A DNA stretch of 55,726 nucleotides from a virus. How positions within the stretch are numbered: the stretch's first letter is position 1; every line of letters begins with the position of its first letter. Position numbers and translations under genes: made by a program. The stretch lies in IMG/VR virus record IMGVR_UViG_3300017938_000011, positions 1 to 55,726 of that record; one strand, given 5' to 3'. Below the pieces are notes generated by a model. That model was not told the origin of the DNA, did not search any database, and saw only the letters and a list, made by a program, of their open reading frames with translations. Positions 3,123 to 48,093 of the stretch are shown in pieces.

Positions 3123-3436
3123 GTTTTGCTCTCCGCCTTTCGACGCCACCAGGTTCGCTCCGAAATACCTTGGGCAACCCACGGCTTGCGTTGCGTGATC
3201 GTTTCCTGTTCGCTTCCGCGCCGCGGACGGCCACCAGTTCCCTTTGGCGGACCTTTCCGTTTCTTTGGCGGCTTGGACGTTATGCCAGTCAAGATCTTCA
3301 CCGCCGTAATAGTGGCCTTGGCTACTCCGATCATACCGCCAGAATGCTTCGTTGGTTTGTTCGGCGTTCCCATGAATTTGGGGCACGGCCCGATGCGATG
3401 CCGTTCGCCGCACGTCCTGCATTTCACTGCGTCCAT
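3119..3436 (-). CDS. Putative DNA-binding protein with a Cys-rich start and HTH-like end
   Basis: 105 residues. The N-terminus MDAVKCRTCGERHRIGPCPK has a CxxC and another Cys and His, a likely zinc-binding knuckle. The middle is basic and Pro/Gly-rich (KPPKKRKGPPKGTGGRPRRG), and the end, KPWVAQGISERTWWRRK, resembles the recognition helix region of small HTH proteins whose pattern is PW...GIS..TWYRR. It lies between the small-subunit-like gene and terL, so a role in DNA recognition for packaging or in regulation is plausible but unproven. Confidence 0.6.
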   Translation of the reverse strand: MDAVKCRTCGERHRIGPCPKFMGTPNKPTKHSGGMIGVAKATITAVKILTGITSKPPKKRKGPPKGTGGRPRRGSEQETITQRKPWVAQGISERTWWRRKAESKT

Positions 3437-37712: not shown

Positions 37713-39362
37713 TTAGTTTCCTGTTTTCAGTCCGTTGACGATGGTGGCGACATTCGCGCCGGTCGTGTTGTGAATTTCGACCTTGACCGAACTGTCTCGA
37801 TATTGATTGTAGCTGGCCGCGCGTTCCAGATAACGCTGCGTCTCCGCCGGCAGCACGGCGGGATTGTCGCCAGCCCTTTTGAATCGGTTCGCGGCGCCGG
37901 GACCGGCGTTGTAAGCGGCGAGAACTTCGGCGATGTTGCCACCATATTGCCGGTAAAGATCGTTCAAAATCGCTTGGGCAACTTTCTCGTTATAGGCCGG
38001 ATCAGTTAGCCGCGAGGGATCGTACCCGTATTGCCGCGCGGTGCCCGGCATGATCTGGTAACGCCCGATCGCACCTTTCGGACTGATGGCGGTGTCACCG
38101 CTACCTTCCAATTTACGAACCAAACCTAGAAGATCAGATGATGTATGGAGCGCGCGATCGAGAAAACTGCCTTTTTCAATAGTCGGATCAAAGGTGCCGA
38201 GTGGTCCCAGATCGAGCAATGGCTTATCGGAGAAGATGCGACGGCCTCCGGCATCCTCAGTCTTGGGAAGCTTCCCGGTGATCCATGTAGAAAAGTCGTC
38301 GATAACAGTCCCAAATTTTTTGACCGTTTGCTTGAAGTCGTCGCCACCGATATAGCCTGCGAAAGCCTTCAAAGCGTCTCCCGATTCATCGACCCATTTC
38401 TTGAGTTCTGGGACACCAAACAAAGAACTGATGAGTTCCTGGATGCCTTCCGAAAGTTTTTTCAGACCAGGAGCGAGCGGAACGAGACCTTGGATGAACG
38501 TGTTTTTGATGCTCTTGCCGGAGAAATCTATGTACATCGTCAAATCTTGCCACTTCATCAACGTGTCGTCGTCGATTTTCAGCTTCCGCGCGTAGTCGGC
38601 TTGCGTCGCCAGAGTCCTTTCAAATTCCGCGGGCCTAGTCCGTTTCAATCGTTCGAGATCGAACTCCGAGACGCCTTGCAGACGATAGGCTTGGATCGTC
38701 TGAGCGAACAATCTCGGATCGGTCCTGTCGGCGAGTTCCTTTAATTTGCGAAGATAGGAGATGCCGAGTTCTGCGGTATCGCCACCCGGCCGCACACCGA
38801 GACTGAGCAGTCCGACGCTTTTGGTGATGTCGAATCTCGCTCCCGCCACGGCTTCTAAAAAGCCGGGACCGACGAAACGTTCGGTGCCGGTCTGGAACGC
38901 CTCTTGGCCGCCAAATGTCGTTCCCAAGCCAAGCGCGGAGCGGCGGCCAGCAGCGGCGCTGGCGGCGAGGCGGTCGATCCCGAATAAGCCGCCCGCACCG
39001 ATTAAGCCGGAAACTATCCCGGTGATTCCGCTCCAACGAATCAGCGAAATCGTCGCTTCCTTGATGTTCGTCGAGAAATTCTTGGTGTACGTGGACATCT
39101 CGCGCCAGAACCGGGACGACCGTTCCAGATGCGCGTTTGTGGCGTTTTGCTCGGCCGCCGCGATGCGCGCGAGGTCGTTCTGCGCCAGGATGGCGGCGGC
39201 GATCGCCTCGAAGCCCTTCCGCTGCGCCTGGATCTCCTTGGTCGCGGCGGCCCAAGCGCCAGGAGCTTTCTCTAAAGTTTTTTGATATTTTTCATAGAGA
39301 TTTGCAAAATTTTTGAACGCCGCGTCATCGACCTGAACGTCTATTATACTTTTGACGGCCAT
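37713..39362 (-). CDS. Tape measure protein with lytic transglycosylase domain
   Basis: 549 residues, short for a tape measure. Helical N-terminal half (FKNFANLYEKYQKTLEKAPG, AAIAAAILAQNDLARI), a hydrophobic part (ISLIRWSGITGIVSGLIGAG) and a C-terminal SLT domain at about 412-525: LVRKLEGSGDTAISPKGAIG with catalytic Glu, RYQIMPGTARQYGYDPSRL, EVLAAYNAGPGAANRFKRAG. Tape measures set the tail length, and the SLT domain opens peptidoglycan for DNA entry. It follows the chaperone genes, as in other tails. Confidence 0.88.
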   Translation of the reverse strand: MAVKSIIDVQVDDAAFKNFANLYEKYQKTLEKAPGAWAAATKEIQAQRKGFEAIAAAILAQNDLARIAAAEQNATNAHLERSSRFWREMSTYTKNFSTNIKEATISLIRWSGITGIVSGLIGAGGLFGIDRLAASAAAGRRSALGLGTTFGGQEAFQTGTERFVGPGFLEAVAGARFDITKSVGLLSLGVRPGGDTAELGISYLRKLKELADRTDPRLFAQTIQAYRLQGVSEFDLERLKRTRPAEFERTLATQADYARKLKIDDDTLMKWQDLTMYIDFSGKSIKNTFIQGLVPLAPGLKKLSEGIQELISSLFGVPELKKWVDESGDALKAFAGYIGGDDFKQTVKKFGTVIDDFSTWITGKLPKTEDAGGRRIFSDKPLLDLGPLGTFDPTIEKGSFLDRALHTSSDLLGLVRKLEGSGDTAISPKGAIGRYQIMPGTARQYGYDPSRLTDPAYNEKVAQAILNDLYRQYGGNIAEVLAAYNAGPGAANRFKRAGDNPAVLPAETQRYLERAASYNQYRDSSVKVEIHNTTGANVATIVNGLKTGN

Positions 39363-40159
39363 CTAAAGCCCCCGCGCATAACGTTGCCGGAATTGATGGG
39401 CGTCGTCGAAGTCCAGCCCGATCTGCTTGGCGAACTCGCCGAAGCCTTCGTTCGCCACCCAACTCAATGCGGCAGCAATGCAGGTCTGCCTTCCGCGGGC
39501 GCATTCGCAGGATCCGGTTTGTGCGCCGCAGACGCAGACGCCGGTTCGCCAGAACTGGCGGTCGCGGTCGACGTCCCCAAGGAACTCGCGAAGGCCGTAG
39601 CGTTCAATGGCGAGAGTCGCGCGTCCCAAAGGTCCGCCACCGCCTCGAGCATCTGCTTGCGCGGCTCGCGGGGCAATGTGGCAGAAGTCGCAATAAAAAA
39701 AAGGACGGCGTTCTCGACCTCCGCCTTGTCTTCCGAATCGAGCTTCTTCTGCGCGACTGCGACTTCGAGCGGGATGGCGTGCCAGCCTTTTTCTGTTGGA
39801 ACAATCACGTTCGTCAAACGCCTGATTTCCTCGACGAGTCCTTTGTCGACGCCGTCGTCTCCGTCCCAAGCGTTCGACGCCATCGCGATGTTTTTCAAGA
39901 TGCGCATGGCTTTCGCCGGTCCAGCGGTAACGCCGAGACCGAGGCCAAAGCATCCGGAATATGTCTGCGCGAGGATGATCTCGTACTTTTCCAGAACCTC
40001 GCCAGCGAGCGGGACGGAGTGAACCCATGCGATGACCGTCCGCGTCATGACCGGCTTACCGTTCTTCGTTTCTGGCTTTCCGTCAGAGCCGAACTTGGCG
40101 ATTTCCTCACCGTAAATAGGGACTACAAAATTCAGATGCCGGTTGATCTTCAGCCCCAC
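39363..40159 (-). CDS. Candidate frameshift form of the tail assembly chaperone (G-T)
   Basis: A minus-one slip on T TTT TTT (39701-39695) would carry the 231-residue chaperone into the second frame, reading FFYCDFCHIAPRAAQ onward to a long end: TLAIERYGLREFLGD, TGVCVCGAQTGSCECARGRQ, LSWVANEGFGEFAKQIGLDF, AHQFRQRYARGL, stop at 39363 just before the tape-measure ATG. The second frame is open across the entire gene and has no ribosome binding site of its own. G/G-T fusions by frameshift before the tape measure are a general feature of long-tailed phages. Product not proven. Confidence 0.6.
39464..40159 (-). CDS. Tail assembly chaperone, zero-frame form
   Basis: 231 residues from GTG 40159 behind GGGAGAGCGCGC. 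KINRHLNFVVPIYGEEIAKF, MTRTVIAWVHSVPLAGEVLE, ILAQTYSGCFGLGLGVTAGP, NAVLFFIATSATLPREPRKQ. The position between tube and tape measure is the usual chaperone place. The Ala/Pro/Ser-rich end (ASSGEPASASAAHKPDPANA) is low complexity. It overlaps the second frame, as in G/G-T pairs. Confidence 0.65.
   Translation of the reverse strand: MGLKINRHLNFVVPIYGEEIAKFGSDGKPETKNGKPVMTRTVIAWVHSVPLAGEVLEKYEIILAQTYSGCFGLGLGVTAGPAKAMRILKNIAMASNAWDGDDGVDKGLVEEIRRLTNVIVPTEKGWHAIPLEVAVAQKKLDSEDKAEVENAVLFFIATSATLPREPRKQMLEAVADLWDARLSPLNATAFASSLGTSTATASSGEPASASAAHKPDPANAPAEGRPALLPH
39695..39701 (-). other. Candidate -1 slippery site T TTT TTT
   Basis: The zero frame reads GTC CTT TTT TTT ATT, Val-Leu-Phe-Phe-Ile. The seven T form a perfect slippery heptamer; after slipping back the next codon is TAT and the second frame begins YCDFCHIAP. 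I have not folded the RNA, so a stimulating structure is unknown. Confidence 0.55.
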
Positions 40160-40172
40160 GCGCGCTCTCCCG

Positions 40173-40613
40173 TCAGTTGAAGGCGTTGGCGTTGACGTAG
40201 TAGACGCCGCGCAAAGTAATTCCCCACAATGGCGTCGTGCCATTGAAGGTCATTTCGCCGACGCCTTGAATCGCCATGCGATTTAATTGGTAAGGACCAA
40301 GCCCAGATGAGACATCTGGCCATGCCGTCCCATCGCCGATGATCGAGTTGGATTCCATCTGAGACTTATAGGCATCGGAAAGTGATTGAGTCTTCAGCAG
40401 CGAGATGAGGAGGCTCACCGGCATGTATGGCTGCGGCGACTGAACAATATTAGTCATCGTCTCGTGCTGAATCGTCGTCGATCCTTCCAAACGAAGCAGC
40501 AAACCAGCTTTGTCCATGAAGGAAGCCGTGACATTCAGACCAGAGAAATTCGCCCAATTAACTGACGCCTTTAGCAGGTTCAGTTGGCCCTGGTCGATGA
40601 GCGGATTGCCCAT
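40173..40613 (-). CDS. Tail tube protein
   Basis: 146 residues. MGNPLIDQGQLNLLKASVNW, GLNVTASFMDKAGLLLRLEG, TTIQHETMTNIVQSPQPYMP, LWGITLRGVYYVNANAFN. Directly downstream of the sheath gene and upstream of the chaperone, the standard place and size for a myovirus tube subunit. Its family is not certain by sequence alone. Confidence 0.65.
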   Translation of the reverse strand: MGNPLIDQGQLNLLKASVNWANFSGLNVTASFMDKAGLLLRLEGSTTIQHETMTNIVQSPQPYMPVSLLISLLKTQSLSDAYKSQMESNSIIGDGTAWPDVSSGLGPYQLNRMAIQGVGEMTFNGTTPLWGITLRGVYYVNANAFN

Positions 40614-40624
40614 GCTTCAGCTCC

Positions 40625-42265
40625 TCACGTCGTGAAGGACGATACGCTGATGTTCACCGTGATCGATTCGAACCCGATCAGCGGCGTGTAGTCGATCGAG
40701 ATGCCATCGTAGGTCCCGGGCGCGTAGTCGTTCGGGTTCTCCGTGACGTAGCTCGCGAACGGATCGGCGTTGACCACCGTGAAGCCGTCGTAGGTCCCGT
40801 TGTCCAACGCGGCGACGAAGTCCGCGGCGTCGAGCGTCGTCATCTTTACGTTGTTGAGCACGAGTCCATCCGTGATGCCGGTATTCATCGTCGAAACGGC
40901 GACTTGTTGCAGTGTGTTGATCCCGGCTTGATTGTAGTAGATCGGATTCTGCGGATTGTTCGCCGCCTCGATCAGCGCAGCGGTGATGTTCACCGCGAGG
41001 TTAGTCTGCACCCAATCGATCGAATACCAATAGTTGAACGGATTGCCATCGAGCGTATTGCCGCCGATCAGGATGTTCGCCGAGATTCCGCCCGCCGCGC
41101 CGGTGCCGACGAAGTTGACGTTGCCGACGTTGAGTTCTGTGAGCAACGCCGCATTGCCCTCGGTCGGAAACGGTGTCACGCCGACAAGGTAGGACAAGTT
41201 GAGCGGCGTGACTTTGTTGGTCGATGACGGCTTGTAATTCAGCGTCACGCGGAAATCGGAGGCGTGGCTGAACTCAGTCGGCGGGATGCCAGCGGAGGCG
41301 TATTGGCTCTGAACGAGCGTGCCGAGCTGCGTCTCCGCCCCGGTCGCTGCCGGGACGTTGAAGACGATCGCGTCGGTGGCGGTGCCGGGAAGCGCGAGGA
41401 ACCAGCCGTTGTATGCGGCCGGAAGATTGCCGGAGAGCTGGAAATACTCACCCGGAGAGACGCCGTGGTTCGTCGTCGTCACCGCCGTCGCCGTCCCAGA
41501 AGTCTGTGTCAGTCCGGTCAGCGCGTTCGCCGGCCAGACGCCGTAAGCCGGACATTCGATCATGAGATCGACGCACTTGTCCGTGTCGGGATAAAGCTGC
41601 CAATTCTGCAGCGTCGTCGTGACGAAGAAGTAAATCTTCGACGTCGTCGCGTTGAAGTTCGCCAGGAAGGCGAGGAACGAGGCGTTGCCGTCCCAGGATC
41701 GCGGCACGAGGTACGAGTAGAACGTGTTCGGGTTCGCCGCGATCCATGTCGTCAAGAATGCGACGCCAGCACTCGGTTCCCCCGGACCCAACTCGAGGAC
41801 GGTAACGCTCTGTGCGGTGCCTTGCGCGAAGAAGGTCGTCGCCATCGCGACGAGCTCGGCCTGGTTCCGCGGCGTATAGGTGATCGTTCCCGTCGCGGGC
41901 GACGTGCCGCCGTCGGAGGCCAGCTCGTAAGTGAACTGCGACACCGTCGTGGCAGTGGCAAGGACCGTGCCGTTGTAAACCGCCGGAATCGCCCCGGCGA
42001 TCATGGTAAGGAATTGGTCGCCGACCGCGACGCCGTGGTTGACCGACGCCGTTGCCGTCGCGACGCCTCCTGACCACGACAGGTTGGAGATGGCTAGCGG
42101 AGCCGCCAGGATCGGCGTCAGGTCGGAAGGCTGCGTCAGGAGAGACTTCGTGCCCGGGCTCGTGTTCGTCCCGCCTTGCGAGATGAAGGCTCCGGTCTTC
42201 TGCAGCGTCGGTGGTGCCGGGGCAACGAGAACGCTTACGTTGACGGAAACTATCGGATTGCTCAT
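40625..42265 (-). CDS. Tail sheath protein (DUF3383-like) with two inserted beta modules
   Basis: 546 residues. PPTLQKTGAFISQGGTNTSP, NTFYSYLVPRSWDGNASFLA, SKIYFFVTTTLQNW and the end YAPGTYDGISIDYTPLIGFE, SITVNISVSSF match DUF3383-type sheath proteins. Two E1-FCCH-like modules are inserted: residues about 58-130 (VNHGVAVGDQFLTMIAGAIP, AVYNGTVLATATTVSQFTYE) and about 248-318 (TTTNHGVSPGEYFQLSGNLP, AAYNGWFLALPGTATDAIVF). The sheath contracts to drive the tube through the envelope; the inserts should stick out from it. Confidence 0.85.
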   Translation of the reverse strand: MSNPIVSVNVSVLVAPAPPTLQKTGAFISQGGTNTSPGTKSLLTQPSDLTPILAAPLAISNLSWSGGVATATASVNHGVAVGDQFLTMIAGAIPAVYNGTVLATATTVSQFTYELASDGGTSPATGTITYTPRNQAELVAMATTFFAQGTAQSVTVLELGPGEPSAGVAFLTTWIAANPNTFYSYLVPRSWDGNASFLAFLANFNATTSKIYFFVTTTLQNWQLYPDTDKCVDLMIECPAYGVWPANALTGLTQTSGTATAVTTTNHGVSPGEYFQLSGNLPAAYNGWFLALPGTATDAIVFNVPAATGAETQLGTLVQSQYASAGIPPTEFSHASDFRVTLNYKPSSTNKVTPLNLSYLVGVTPFPTEGNAALLTELNVGNVNFVGTGAAGGISANILIGGNTLDGNPFNYWYSIDWVQTNLAVNITAALIEAANNPQNPIYYNQAGINTLQQVAVSTMNTGITDGLVLNNVKMTTLDAADFVAALDNGTYDGFTVVNADPFASYVTENPNDYAPGTYDGISIDYTPLIGFESITVNISVSSFTT

Positions 42266-44575: not shown

Positions 44576-44875
44576 TCATGCCGCGATCAGGTCAGAAGCC
44601 TTGACGAAGAACTTGGTAGCCGGGGACGTCGCGATCACCGCCCCCGTTCCCTGCCATTGATACGTCCATTCCCCAGGGCCGGAAGGCACGAACAGCATGT
44701 AGTAAACGCCGACGCTGGTCCGCACGATGGGAGTGCCGGGACCGTATTCCGTCACGTTGCCCGACGGATCCTCGACGTACAAGATCGTCGTCGTCGGATC
44801 GGCCGGGATGTTGGCGGCCACGTTGTAGAATTTCCCGTTGAGCTGGATCTGCGTGTCGATCTGATACATGTTCAT
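44576..44875 (-). CDS. Small beta-sandwich protein
   Basis: 99 residues from ATG 44875, overlapping the repeat-protein stop (ATGA). MNMYQIDTQIQLNGKFYNVA, PTTTILYVEDPSGNVTEYGP, VRTSVGVYYMLFVPSGPGEW, TYQWQGTGAVIATSPATKFF. The all-beta, Ig-like pattern, with a conserved Gly-Glu-Trp turn, is common in phage virion proteins. Partner of the proline-rich protein by genetic linkage. Confidence 0.55.
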   Translation of the reverse strand: MNMYQIDTQIQLNGKFYNVAANIPADPTTTILYVEDPSGNVTEYGPGTPIVRTSVGVYYMLFVPSGPGEWTYQWQGTGAVIATSPATKFFVKASDLIAA

Positions 44876-47800
44876 GACCGAGGAGCCTTTCCGATGTCGC
44901 TCGCGAATACCACGAAGGACGCGAAATCGCTGGCGACGCAAGTGTCTGGCGCCACCGGCGTGATGTTCGCTGGGTCGAGGTTGACGGCGACTTGATAGGC
45001 CGGATCGGGCGGAACCCACCCGATCAGGACTGTGAGCGGCACGCTCGATCCTAGGAACGGCGGGTTCTGCGGCTGCGGCGCGCTGACGGGGATGGGCAAC
45101 CGCAGCGGTTGATCGGGCTGGTATCCATATCCGAGCCAAGCGATCTCGATCTCCAGCGGCTCTTTTGCGCCAGCGAAGGGAAACGGACCGGATGGAACCG
45201 CCAAGATGCGCTGCTGGATCGGTTCCGGCGCGAGCCAATTCACCAAGACTTCGACGGGAACCTTGGCTCCGACCAGCGGCGGAATGGACACCAGCAGCCC
45301 TGGCGCGGTCGCCCGTCGCGTTTGGACGTCCGGGGCTGGAACGGCCCACCAGGAAAGAACGTCTTGTCCCACGCCCACGCCACGCGGAACGAAGGCCGTC
45401 CTGGGAACGATCTTCGCGGTGATGACTTGGTCCGGCGCGAGAGCCACCCACCAAGACAGGACATCCTGACCAATGGCGGTGCCGCGCGGCAGGAAGGCCG
45501 TTTGCGGGACCACCTTGGGGATGAAGACCTGGTCAGGCGGCGGTATCTGCCACCAAGCCAGGACCGGCAGCGGTACGCTCGACCCGATCGGCGTCTTTTG
45601 CGGCGCGCTCGGCGGCGTCCGTAGCTTCGCCGTCTGCGCCGCAGGCGGCTCAATGGATTGCCACCACACCATGACAGGCGCGGGAACTTGCGACCCGAAC
45701 GGTTGAACGTGAGCACTCGGCGGCGTCAGCGACGGTGCGGTCTGTGGTTGCGGTGATATTGGCGACCACAACGCTTGGATAATCTCCAACGGAGCGCGGG
45801 AACCGGGGAATGGCGGGTTCTGCGGCGTCGGGCCGTTGGGTGGCGTTAATGGTGGCGCTACGATTGGCTGCGGGTCAGGCGGCAGCCAGTTGAGTTGCAC
45901 TTCGTCGGGCAATCTTGCGCCAACCAGATGGGTTGTCGGCGCTGGCCCACTCGGCTCCGTCAGCGACGCACCCACGATTGGTGCCGGATCTGGCGGTAGC
46001 CATGTCAGTAGAACCGGCAACGGCACCTGAGCGCCGCCAGCAAACGGCGGGTTTTGCGGGATCGGCGGCGGGACAGTCTGTACTCTTGCCGGCAAAGGCA
46101 AAATCGGAGGCAACCACGCCAGCAGTTCCGCCTCGCGGAAGTTCGATCCGATCAGCGGCGGGTTCTGCGGCACCGACCGCGGCGGAGAAAGCAATCGCGC
46201 CGCTTGGAACGCGGGAGCGGGCGGCAGCCACGAGGCCAAGATCTCGGTCGAGACTTTCGTCCCGATGGGCGTCGGCGGCGGTGCCGAGCGCGGCGTCAAC
46301 CGTGCCCCGATTTGGAATGGCGGATCCGGCGCGATCCAGGCGTCGAGGACCGCTATCTGCGACGCTGGGGCGAGGACGTAGGCGGGCCCCCTGAGTACGG
46401 CGGACTCTGGCAATTCCACAAAAATCGGCGGTGCATACCAAGAGAGAACTTCTAACGACACCTTGGTGCCAGGGAACGGGATCGGCACTGCCGGTCCCGG
46501 CTGCGGAGGCGTCAATCGCGCGCCAGTTTGTGGCTGCGGGGCGTGAGGCAGCCAAGCAATCTGAATCTCCACCGGAACCTTGGTCCCGGGGAACGGCGGA
46601 TTTTGCACTGCGGGCCCGCTCGGCTCCGTCAGCGAAGCTCCGATTTGGAACATCGGATCGGGCGGCAACCAAGAAATCAAAACTTCGACCGGCACCTTCG
46701 CTCCGACTGGCGGCGGCGGTTGTCCCGCTGGCCCGCTCGGTGGAAGACGCGGCTGGGTTCTGATTGGTTGAGGCGGCGGCGGAATCCAGCCGACGAGAAC
46801 CTCGATCGGAACCTTGGTCCCGATAACGGGCGGGTTCTGCGGAATATTGCTGCTGAGGACGCCGGAAGGCGCCAAATCAATGATGGCTGGCGGCTTCGCC
46901 CATGAGATCAAGATCGGCAACGGGACGCCGATCGACATAACGGCTGGCGGGTTTTGCGGGGCACTTACCGGCGGAGAAAGATTCCGAACCGTCTGGAAGG
47001 CCGGGTCTGGCGGTAGCCACGTTTCCAGGACCGCGCCGAATTGCTGCGATGTTGCCCCCGGGAAGGGCGGGTTCTGCGGCGTGGGTCCGCTCGGCGGTAT
47101 GAGATTGCGCGCGACTTGGAACGCAAAATCGACGCTGGCCGGCGGCGTCTGCCACGAGAAGTTTTCGACCAGCGGCCTCGTGAACGGCGTCACCGGGGCT
47201 TCGATGGGAGGCGATAGCAGCCGAGTAGTTTGGAAAACCGGGTCGGTCGGAAGCCATGAAATCAGGACCGGCAACGGCACGGCGGTCCCGATCGACTGGA
47301 ACGTGGACAACGTCAGATTGGGGCCGGTTTGGAACTGAGGATCGGGCGGAATCCAGTTGATCTGGACCTCAAGCGGAACCCGCGACCCGACCGGAGTAGG
47401 CTGCGGCGCCGACCGCGGGGGCACCAACAAGCGAACGGTTTGGAACGGCGGGTCTGGCGGCAGCCAGGCGTTCTGCACCACGACTTGTTGCGATACGAGA
47501 GGCAGCACGAAGCCCGGAGCCGCCGCCGACGGCGGCAACCCGTTGATCGGGATCGAGACGACCGTGGTCGCCGACCAAGAGTTCAATACCGACTGCGGTA
47601 CTTTGGTCCCGGGAAACGGCGGGTTCTGAGCAAGAGGCGCAGAGATCGGAGGATTGAGAAGCCGCGCTGTTTGGAAGGCCGGATCGGGCGGAATCCAGGC
47701 GACTAAGACGGGCAGCGGCACGCTGCTTCCGATTACGGGCGGATTTTGCGGGGCCGAGATCGGCGGCGTCAGCAGTTCTTGGCAGTACGGCTGCTGGTTG

Positions 47801-48093
47801 CCTTCGTAGATCGGCGGCGGGGGTGGCAGCCAAGCATTGAGGATTTCGACCGGGACGCGGCCGCCAATCACAGGAGGATTCTGCGGCTGCGAGAGCGGCG
47901 GGTTGAGATTGGTCGCGACGATGGGCTGCGGCGGCGCAGGCGTCCACGCGCCAAGCACGACCGCCAACGCCATCGCGGCGGCGCCCATGAATGGCGGGTT
48001 TTGAGGTTGGGATTGCGGCGGAACCAGCAGCTTCTCTTGAAGCGGCTGCTGGTTGCCGACATTGTAAAGGGGCGGGTGGTAGAAGATGCCCAT
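44872..48093 (-). CDS. Proline-rich protein of about 27 tryptophan-centred repeats
   Basis: 1073 residues with no recognised family. Degenerate units of about 40 residues run nearly the whole length, with the plan QNPPF(P/I)G(T/S)xVPxxVLxxW(L/I)PPDPxFQ then xRxLxPPxSAP. I count about 27 units by their central Trp (for example EILNAWLPPPPP, VLVAWIPPDPAF, VLISWLPPDPMF, VLIGWVPPDPAY). Proline is extremely frequent, so an extended rod or fibre is likely. No signal peptide or transmembrane segment. Flanked by virion-type genes and two genes from a glycosyltransferase. Could be a fibre, a whisker or a tail-surface protein. Confidence 0.7.
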   Translation of the reverse strand: MGIFYHPPLYNVGNQQPLQEKLLVPPQSQPQNPPFMGAAAMALAVVLGAWTPAPPQPIVATNLNPPLSQPQNPPVIGGRVPVEILNAWLPPPPPIYEGNQQPYCQELLTPPISAPQNPPVIGSSVPLPVLVAWIPPDPAFQTARLLNPPISAPLAQNPPFPGTKVPQSVLNSWSATTVVSIPINGLPPSAAAPGFVLPLVSQQVVVQNAWLPPDPPFQTVRLLVPPRSAPQPTPVGSRVPLEVQINWIPPDPQFQTGPNLTLSTFQSIGTAVPLPVLISWLPTDPVFQTTRLLSPPIEAPVTPFTRPLVENFSWQTPPASVDFAFQVARNLIPPSGPTPQNPPFPGATSQQFGAVLETWLPPDPAFQTVRNLSPPVSAPQNPPAVMSIGVPLPILISWAKPPAIIDLAPSGVLSSNIPQNPPVIGTKVPIEVLVGWIPPPPQPIRTQPRLPPSGPAGQPPPPVGAKVPVEVLISWLPPDPMFQIGASLTEPSGPAVQNPPFPGTKVPVEIQIAWLPHAPQPQTGARLTPPQPGPAVPIPFPGTKVSLEVLSWYAPPIFVELPESAVLRGPAYVLAPASQIAVLDAWIAPDPPFQIGARLTPRSAPPPTPIGTKVSTEILASWLPPAPAFQAARLLSPPRSVPQNPPLIGSNFREAELLAWLPPILPLPARVQTVPPPIPQNPPFAGGAQVPLPVLLTWLPPDPAPIVGASLTEPSGPAPTTHLVGARLPDEVQLNWLPPDPQPIVAPPLTPPNGPTPQNPPFPGSRAPLEIIQALWSPISPQPQTAPSLTPPSAHVQPFGSQVPAPVMVWWQSIEPPAAQTAKLRTPPSAPQKTPIGSSVPLPVLAWWQIPPPDQVFIPKVVPQTAFLPRGTAIGQDVLSWWVALAPDQVITAKIVPRTAFVPRGVGVGQDVLSWWAVPAPDVQTRRATAPGLLVSIPPLVGAKVPVEVLVNWLAPEPIQQRILAVPSGPFPFAGAKEPLEIEIAWLGYGYQPDQPLRLPIPVSAPQPQNPPFLGSSVPLTVLIGWVPPDPAYQVAVNLDPANITPVAPDTCVASDFASFVVFASDIGKAPRS

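Follow-up and report, generated by a model that had tools for sequence, protein, structure and literature searches.

In phage lambda, the gene preceding the tape measure gene gives rise to two products, G and GT, through a -1 shift located near the 3' end of g (PMC5009743, in the part available). The chaperones of Mooglevirus and Vandenendeviridae are myovirus examples in which the -1 shift takes place on a poly-T site with the motif GTTTTT, and the stretch downstream of this site is often annotated as a separate hypothetical gene (available part of PMC12846349). The mean distance from slip to stop is quoted as 26 nt for the SEA-PHAGES chaperones and as 36 nt for the Xu et al. phage set, and the predictor PRFect, which takes the stop distance as one of its features, is reported by its authors to have poor recall at long distances (PMC10885494, as far as its available text goes); loci of the kind described here are therefore easily missed.

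Here we analyse such a locus in a viral DNA of 55,726 nt (IMG/VR record IMGVR_UViG_3300017938_000011), the whole of which is called the window. A first-pass annotation had pointed to a -1 frameshift candidate at a run of T before the tape measure, and this proposal is supported, since the heptamer, the -1 open reading frame (ORF) and its end recur across the sampled relatives. Our main reading, to which we give a probability of roughly 0.86, is that the gene undergoes programmed -1 ribosomal frameshifting and that the resulting pair is most likely the tail assembly chaperone of a contractile-tailed phage. Comparison of the relatives shows a conserved slip site, a conserved -1 frame with no shared independent start, and selection acting on both frames. 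It is probably a known kind of tail-assembly trick, but with an unusually long stretch that codes for two proteins at once.

Locus and gene neighborhood

The candidate pair is found directly upstream of the tape-measure position and downstream of the tail sheath and the tube position. The features of the locus are as follows.

37713..39362, minus strand: downstream ORF at the tape-measure position, 549 aa, with an SLT transglycosylase domain (PF01464, E 5.9e-17)
39363..39695, minus strand: -1 frame after the slip, 110 codons and TAG (phrog_14324, E 4.1e-7)
39464..39694, minus strand: dual-coded overlap from the slip site to the zero-frame TGA; 228 nt separate the heptamer from the stop
39480..39539 (approximate), minus strand: insertion rich in Cys within the -1 domain, limited to the loci closest to the window
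39566..39622, minus strand: central part of the overlap (roughly codons +26 to +44), with selection on both frames according to shuffle tests
39695..39701, minus strand: slippery heptamer T_TTT_TTT at codons Phe154-Phe155, followed by A
39464..40159, minus strand: zero-frame gene ORF1, 231 aa, GTG start (inferred); short product, putative G-like component
40173..40613, minus strand: upstream protein at the tube position (phrog_6566, a family with no function assigned)
40625..42265, minus strand: tail sheath protein (phrog_205 tail sheath, E 5.4e-24)

The tube and tape-measure assignments were made by position, and the tape-measure candidate has the SLT domain in addition. The GTG start of ORF1 at 40159 was inferred by aligning with relatives, and ORF1 matches phrog_11810 at E 2.5e-38 when the query start is extended upstream. 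Codons 153-156 of ORF1 are CTT TTT TTT ATT, and the phase of the heptamer is right for a -1 shift; the T TTT TTT site read from CTT TTT TTT at first pass is thus present, at 39701-39695 of the minus strand, and its placement in the last half of the gene is about right, the slip falling on codons 154-155 of 231. The predicted fusion consists of 155 + 110 = 265 aa. The TAG of the -1 frame at 39365-39363 directly abuts the downstream ATG at 39362, as expected from the earlier description of a stop just before the tape measure; the same description had the second frame open over the entire gene, which is too generous, for the opening begins at 40055, leaving 118 open codons ahead of the slip, and the gene starts at 40159.

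Elsewhere in the window, a 1073-aa proline-rich ORF at 44872-48093 (minus strand) shows by eye many degenerate repeats of the form PP.SAPQNPP..G.KVPVEVL..WLPPDP. This ORF has no PHROG match, and a search for a DNA tandem array found none.

Relatives and sampling

A tblastn search against annotated phages matched 9 records with the first part of the pair and 12 with the second, and eight records were opened. The two parts are adjacent in Klebsiella phages RothC, RothD and Chronis and in Pantoea phage PdC23 (second part at E about 2e-4 to 3e-4). For Actinobacillus pPE4 and E. coli Rac-SA53, tblastn reached the second part at E 0.2-0.3 only. The second part of Rac-SA53 matches phrog_14324, the same family as matched by the window, at 5.9e-62. 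For the Yersinia phages the second part was found by tblastn, and the first part appears once the locus is translated. Among viral contigs, 258 encode a relative (with A1 as query), and the best 80 of these 258 were used together with 9 genome contigs that carry such a relative. In total 98 loci were examined, near-duplicates included, and one representative per 85% protein identity gave 53 dereplicated loci. One locus with a disrupted ORF1 (L105) was left out of the 53; it belongs to Kluyvera genomosp. 3, where the ORF1 frame is broken before the slip site and the prophage copy looks decayed. The contig search patterns partly required Phe-Phe, and the conservation of this pair is biased in consequence, while neither the use of TTT instead of TTC nor the T ahead of the pair is subject to this bias.

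The same locus, consisting of ORF1, slip site and -1 domain, is carried by Felixviridae (RothD, Chronis, PdC23; PMC12451628, PMC12629751) and by E. coli prophages similar to Rac-SA53. Most of the queried stretch is held by 88 of 5426 complete E. coli genomes, and the laboratory strain E. coli W carries a copy of the locus. In the 8 phage records and 7 E. coli genomes inspected the -1 domain has no CDS, the sole exception being a fragment in RothD, and thus those annotations, among them a phage family named recently and the prophages of these 88 E. coli genomes, lack an entire domain. The main text of PMC12629751, on Felixviridae, does not contain the word frameshift. The RothD fragment, at 3145-3249 of that record (L012), is an annotated CDS of 35 aa in the -1 frame, a piece of the domain that the frameshift would express.

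Conservation of the slip site

The window has no second run of eight T, and about 1.5 such runs are expected by chance. By itself the run is not significant and proves nothing; the case rests on the relatives. Looking for the same T run in relatives had been proposed at first pass, and T_TTT_TTT is found in the zero-frame phase, at the same codon pair, in 92 of the 98 loci; the others have T_TTT_TTC (L092), A, C, G and G before TTT TTT (L033, L053, L098 and L099, respectively), or the disrupted ORF1 mentioned above. After dereplication the exact heptamer is present in 49 of 53 loci, where about 5.5% would be expected from codon usage given Phe-Phe, and the four that deviate have A_TTT_TTT (L033), C_TTT_TTT (L053), G_TTT_TTT (L098) and T_TTT_TTC (L092). 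Taken separately, TTT TTT occurs in 52/53, the T before it in 50/53 and the A after it in 52/53, and elsewhere in these genes Phe is encoded 101 times by TTT and 163 times by TTC. F154-F155 are the only invariant columns across the 53 proteins. All eight opened phage records, which were found by tblastn with no Phe-Phe pattern, have the heptamer. From these alignments we conclude that the slip site is under selection and that the feature kept is the phased heptamer, the eighth T being variable (runs of 8 in 40, of 7 in 10 and of 6 in 3 of the 53 loci).

Slippage of the RNA polymerase on the T run would produce mRNAs with one extra U and an identical fusion protein, and the eight T of the window could be read in this manner. 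Efficient polymerase slippage needs longer T runs, however, and a run of 9 or more occurs in none of the 53 loci. What is conserved is moreover a phased heptamer, with the last base of the preceding codon fixed as T to the extent given above and the middle base of that codon varying. We regard polymerase slippage as very unlikely.

The second reading frame

The -1 frame is open beyond the zero-frame stop in all 53 loci, and its own stop lies at most 14 nt from the start of a long downstream ORF in 46 of them (under a mechanical rule, it is further off in 4 and no such ORF start was found in 3). Upstream of the slip, 34 of the 53 loci have a -1 stop within 12 codons, and the long upstream opening in the window is therefore incidental. 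The frame encodes a conserved domain, LYGVxxFLADVDxGRxFWR ... LDWAAxEGF ... SAxEFRQR, which corresponds to PHROG family 14324. A Cys-rich stretch had been described as the end of the second product; it is actually an insertion in the middle of the -1 domain, with its C.C...C.C motif in 9/53 loci, all among those closest to the window, and it possibly binds metal.

A reading in which the -1 frame forms an independent gene, initiated internally and simply overlapping ORF1, draws on several observations: PHROG 14324 treats the -1 part as a protein of 97 aa, the E. coli clade has an ATG just past the slip, and the -1 frame of the window has start-like codons at -110 and -85 (ATG) and at -57 and +23 (TTG). 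Yet 14 of the 53 loci have no ATG, GTG or TTG anywhere between the upstream stop and the zero-frame stop, and the start-like codon that recurs at +23 overlaps a common zero-frame Trp codon. A separate gene would also leave the conservation of the phased heptamer with no reason, and we consider it extremely unlikely. The relatives thus answer both questions raised at first pass, since the second frame is conserved and no separate start is shared. Judged by this comparison, the second frame is a coding frame that is reached from the first; overall the first-pass annotation holds for the most part, and the sequences give strong support to the frameshift reading.

Dual coding in the overlap

In the shuffle tests the protein of one frame was held and codons were redrawn according to each gene's own usage; five of the 53 loci have another spacing and were excluded (n=48). 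Over codons +26 to +44 the -1 frame reaches an identity of 0.398 versus 0.157 in shuffles holding the zero-frame protein, and the zero frame one of 0.437 versus 0.218 in shuffles holding the -1 protein. The result is similar for 9 sequences dereplicated at 42% identity (-1 frame 0.377 versus 0.142, zero frame 0.393 versus 0.198). On either side of this core the constraint is divided between the frames: at codons +2 to +25 the zero frame bears most of it (0.247 versus 0.147, with 0.208 versus 0.172 for the -1 frame), and from codon +45 onward it is mostly borne by the -1 frame (0.420 versus 0.174, with 0.247 versus 0.215 for the zero frame). Two controls were included. The -1 reading before the slip gives 0.178 versus 0.162 with 92 stops, a small excess of 0.016 (z 4.5 with the 48 loci, absent with the 9) that we put down to relatedness, and the zero-frame reading past its stop gives 0.179 versus 0.173 with 5 stops (n=25).

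The distribution of variable sites was followed in the E. coli prophage clade, using 26 distinct sequences. Before the slip, 112/118 sites vary at zero-frame position 3 versus 46/119 and 30/119 at the other positions; in the overlap, 29, 43 and 35 of 76 sites vary at positions 1, 2 and 3; after the zero-frame stop, 15/20 vary at the -1 third position versus 7/20 and 9/20. Comparison of relatives thus shows, as far as sequence evidence goes, simultaneous selection on the two frames over about 19 codons. The locus provides a resolved natural example of one piece of DNA in which two protein parts are under selection.

Distance to the stop and predicted structure

The distance from the heptamer to the zero-frame stop is 156-267 nt (median 186, n=53), with 228 nt in the window. 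The remark that the slip comes earlier than is typical proved correct, since the mean distances given for known tail-chaperone frameshifts are 26 and 36 nt. A slip close to the end of the gene is a usual trait of G/GT pairs, not a strictly defining one. In the AlphaFold2 model of ORF1 (pLDDT 87) the chain is ordered to about residue 197, and the slip falls inside helix 142-161. The -1 part modelled alone is predicted to be helical with its first 21 residues loose (pLDDT 70). As ORF1 is predicted to remain ordered for about 40 residues past the slip, the shift would exchange the C-terminus rather than merely extend it, and in the long form a different end would stand in place of about 40 residues that are folded in the short form.

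We consider the odds roughly even that the locus is an isoform switch. The zero frame would then complete a folded chaperone domain (about 40 residues and a tail), and the -1 frame would substitute a different helical domain, the first conserved helix of which shares its DNA, by overprinting, with the last part of the chaperone domain. The short and long products would be conformers of a single tail chaperone that exclude each other, and a new domain would have arisen by overprinting inside an essential tail gene. No description of a chaperone frameshift with so long an overlap was found in the literature surveyed, which includes the available parts of PMC10885494, PMC5009743, PMC3711429, PMC12629751, PMC12451628, PMC12846349 and PMC8008677; priority is not claimed. 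Which features of the short form are required by the long form of a tail chaperone is a question that can be put directly to this locus, because the two forms do not have the whole domain in common.

Evidence for a chaperone role

Assignment as a tail chaperone follows from position together with weak fold matches. The gene order of sheath, tube position, ORF1 and tape measure is that of annotated chaperone loci. Chaperone families diverge fast. No Pfam or NCBIfam family was found for the window protein, and searches with 12 family members likewise returned nothing usable; PDB sequence profiles gave nothing above chance level for either part. Among PDB folds there was no convincing match by Foldseek (ORF1) or by VIA-align (both parts), which is no proof that the fold is new. 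In the fold search against BFVD, ORF1 has one significant match, an uncharacterised protein (E 5.7e-5), and the -1 domain has none. Named chaperone or tail assembly proteins do occur among the Foldseek/BFVD rows of ORF1, at probabilities of 0.14-0.54 and each below significance: 'tail assembly chaperone' of Myoviridae ctxpQ22 and ct9dX1 and of Arthrobacter phage Kitkat, 'putative tail assembly protein' of POR1 and 'tape measure chaperone' of Moogle. AB1gp01, which belongs to the chaperone family phrog_1932, is a further row below significance. This family was looked for in the window and is absent, and hhalign of ORF1 against AB1-type chaperones was not significant, with the best alignment just before the slip. 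Viral contigs contain one locus with a relative of AB1gp01, and it is 100% identical.

A real frameshift may also serve products other than tail chaperones, which might for example be built into the virion or regulate the tape-measure protein with its lytic transglycosylase. Such a role agrees with the fact that no sequence family or solved fold with a chaperone function was matched, and with a slip that is atypically distant from the stop. On the other hand, the site lies between the tube-position gene and the tape measure, which is the order in phages with annotated chaperones, and several named chaperones are found among the weak fold matches; we therefore think a non-chaperone role unlikely. 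The term tail chaperone used at first pass accordingly stands as a probable reading of gene order and of fold matches that are weak and individually non-significant, and it goes further than the families do, as Pfam and NCBIfam offer none and the PHROG family has no assigned function. Our analysis suggests that the locus most likely works like a G/GT pair, and membership is not claimed as proven.

Proposed mechanism

Slippage of tandem tRNA-Phe is the simplest reading of the mechanism. Most ribosomes would end at the own stop of ORF1 and release the 231-aa protein, and a fraction would slip back by one base, with tRNA-Phe on both UUU codons of U_UUU_UUU, and read on in the -1 frame to give a 265-aa protein, the first 155 residues being common to both. 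The short form would coat the tape-measure protein and the rarer long form would recruit the tube or sheath subunit, as do lambda G and GT. With the shift well inside the folded part of the short protein, the products would have alternative C-terminal parts. That the slippage is ribosomal, its efficiency, the ratio of products and the chaperone function are all predicted properties.

Downstream RNA structure is a candidate stimulator that is only suggestive: folding just after the slip is modestly stronger than in synonymous shuffles (mean z -0.84, p 1e-4), but an upstream control position deviates as well (z -0.56, p 1e-5), and against dinucleotide shuffles z is -0.57. No Rfam family was matched. 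A Shine-Dalgarno stimulator was considered and dropped, since the GGAGG-like stretch upstream follows from the protein and is no stronger than the amino acids dictate (synonymous control, p 0.10).

Comparison with known systems

The chaperones of Obolenskvirus type (phrog_1932; AB1gp01, phiAC-1, Highwayman and Pantoea PA-1), together with Aeromonas vB_AsaM-56, resemble the present locus in having an upstream sheath (phrog_205 in AB1) and a tube-position protein, an in-frame poly-T heptamer (T_TTT_TTA or T_TTT_TTC in 4/5), and a small -1 ORF before the tape measure. They differ in that the slip of phiAC-1, Highwayman and PA-1, at T_TTT_TTA or T_TTT_TTC, is only 15 nt before the stop, that vB_AsaM-56 has G_GGT_TTT at 24 nt before the stop, and that the Obolenskvirus-type chaperones have no significant profile similarity to ORF1. 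In Acinetobacter phage AB1 (L107, 45151-44933 and 441-16), AB1gp01 and AB1gp85 are annotated as separate genes but have the look of a usual G/GT pair, in which T_TTT_TTA precedes the stop by a few codons.

With the Mooglevirus/Vandenendeviridae chaperones the locus shares a myovirus setting, a -1 shift on a poly-T site and a downstream stretch that tends to be left to a separate hypothetical gene (PMC12846349, available part). Moogle itself slips at T_TTT_TTC, 14 codons before the stop, and matches Pfam Phage_TAC_15, whereas the predicted slip in the window gene comes far earlier and its protein matches no Pfam family.

The slip sequence here, T_TTT_TTT, is unlike that of lambda, which is G_GGA_AAG. 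The likeness to lambda G/GT is found in the -1 shift in the gene before the tape measure, in the two products from one gene and in a -1 frame with no start shared across relatives (available part of PMC5009743). The lambda shift occurs near the 3' end of g, whereas here 156-267 nt are left to the stop (same source for lambda). Unlike in lambda, the overlap here is partly selected in both frames, and the short product is predicted to be ordered for about 40 residues past the slip.
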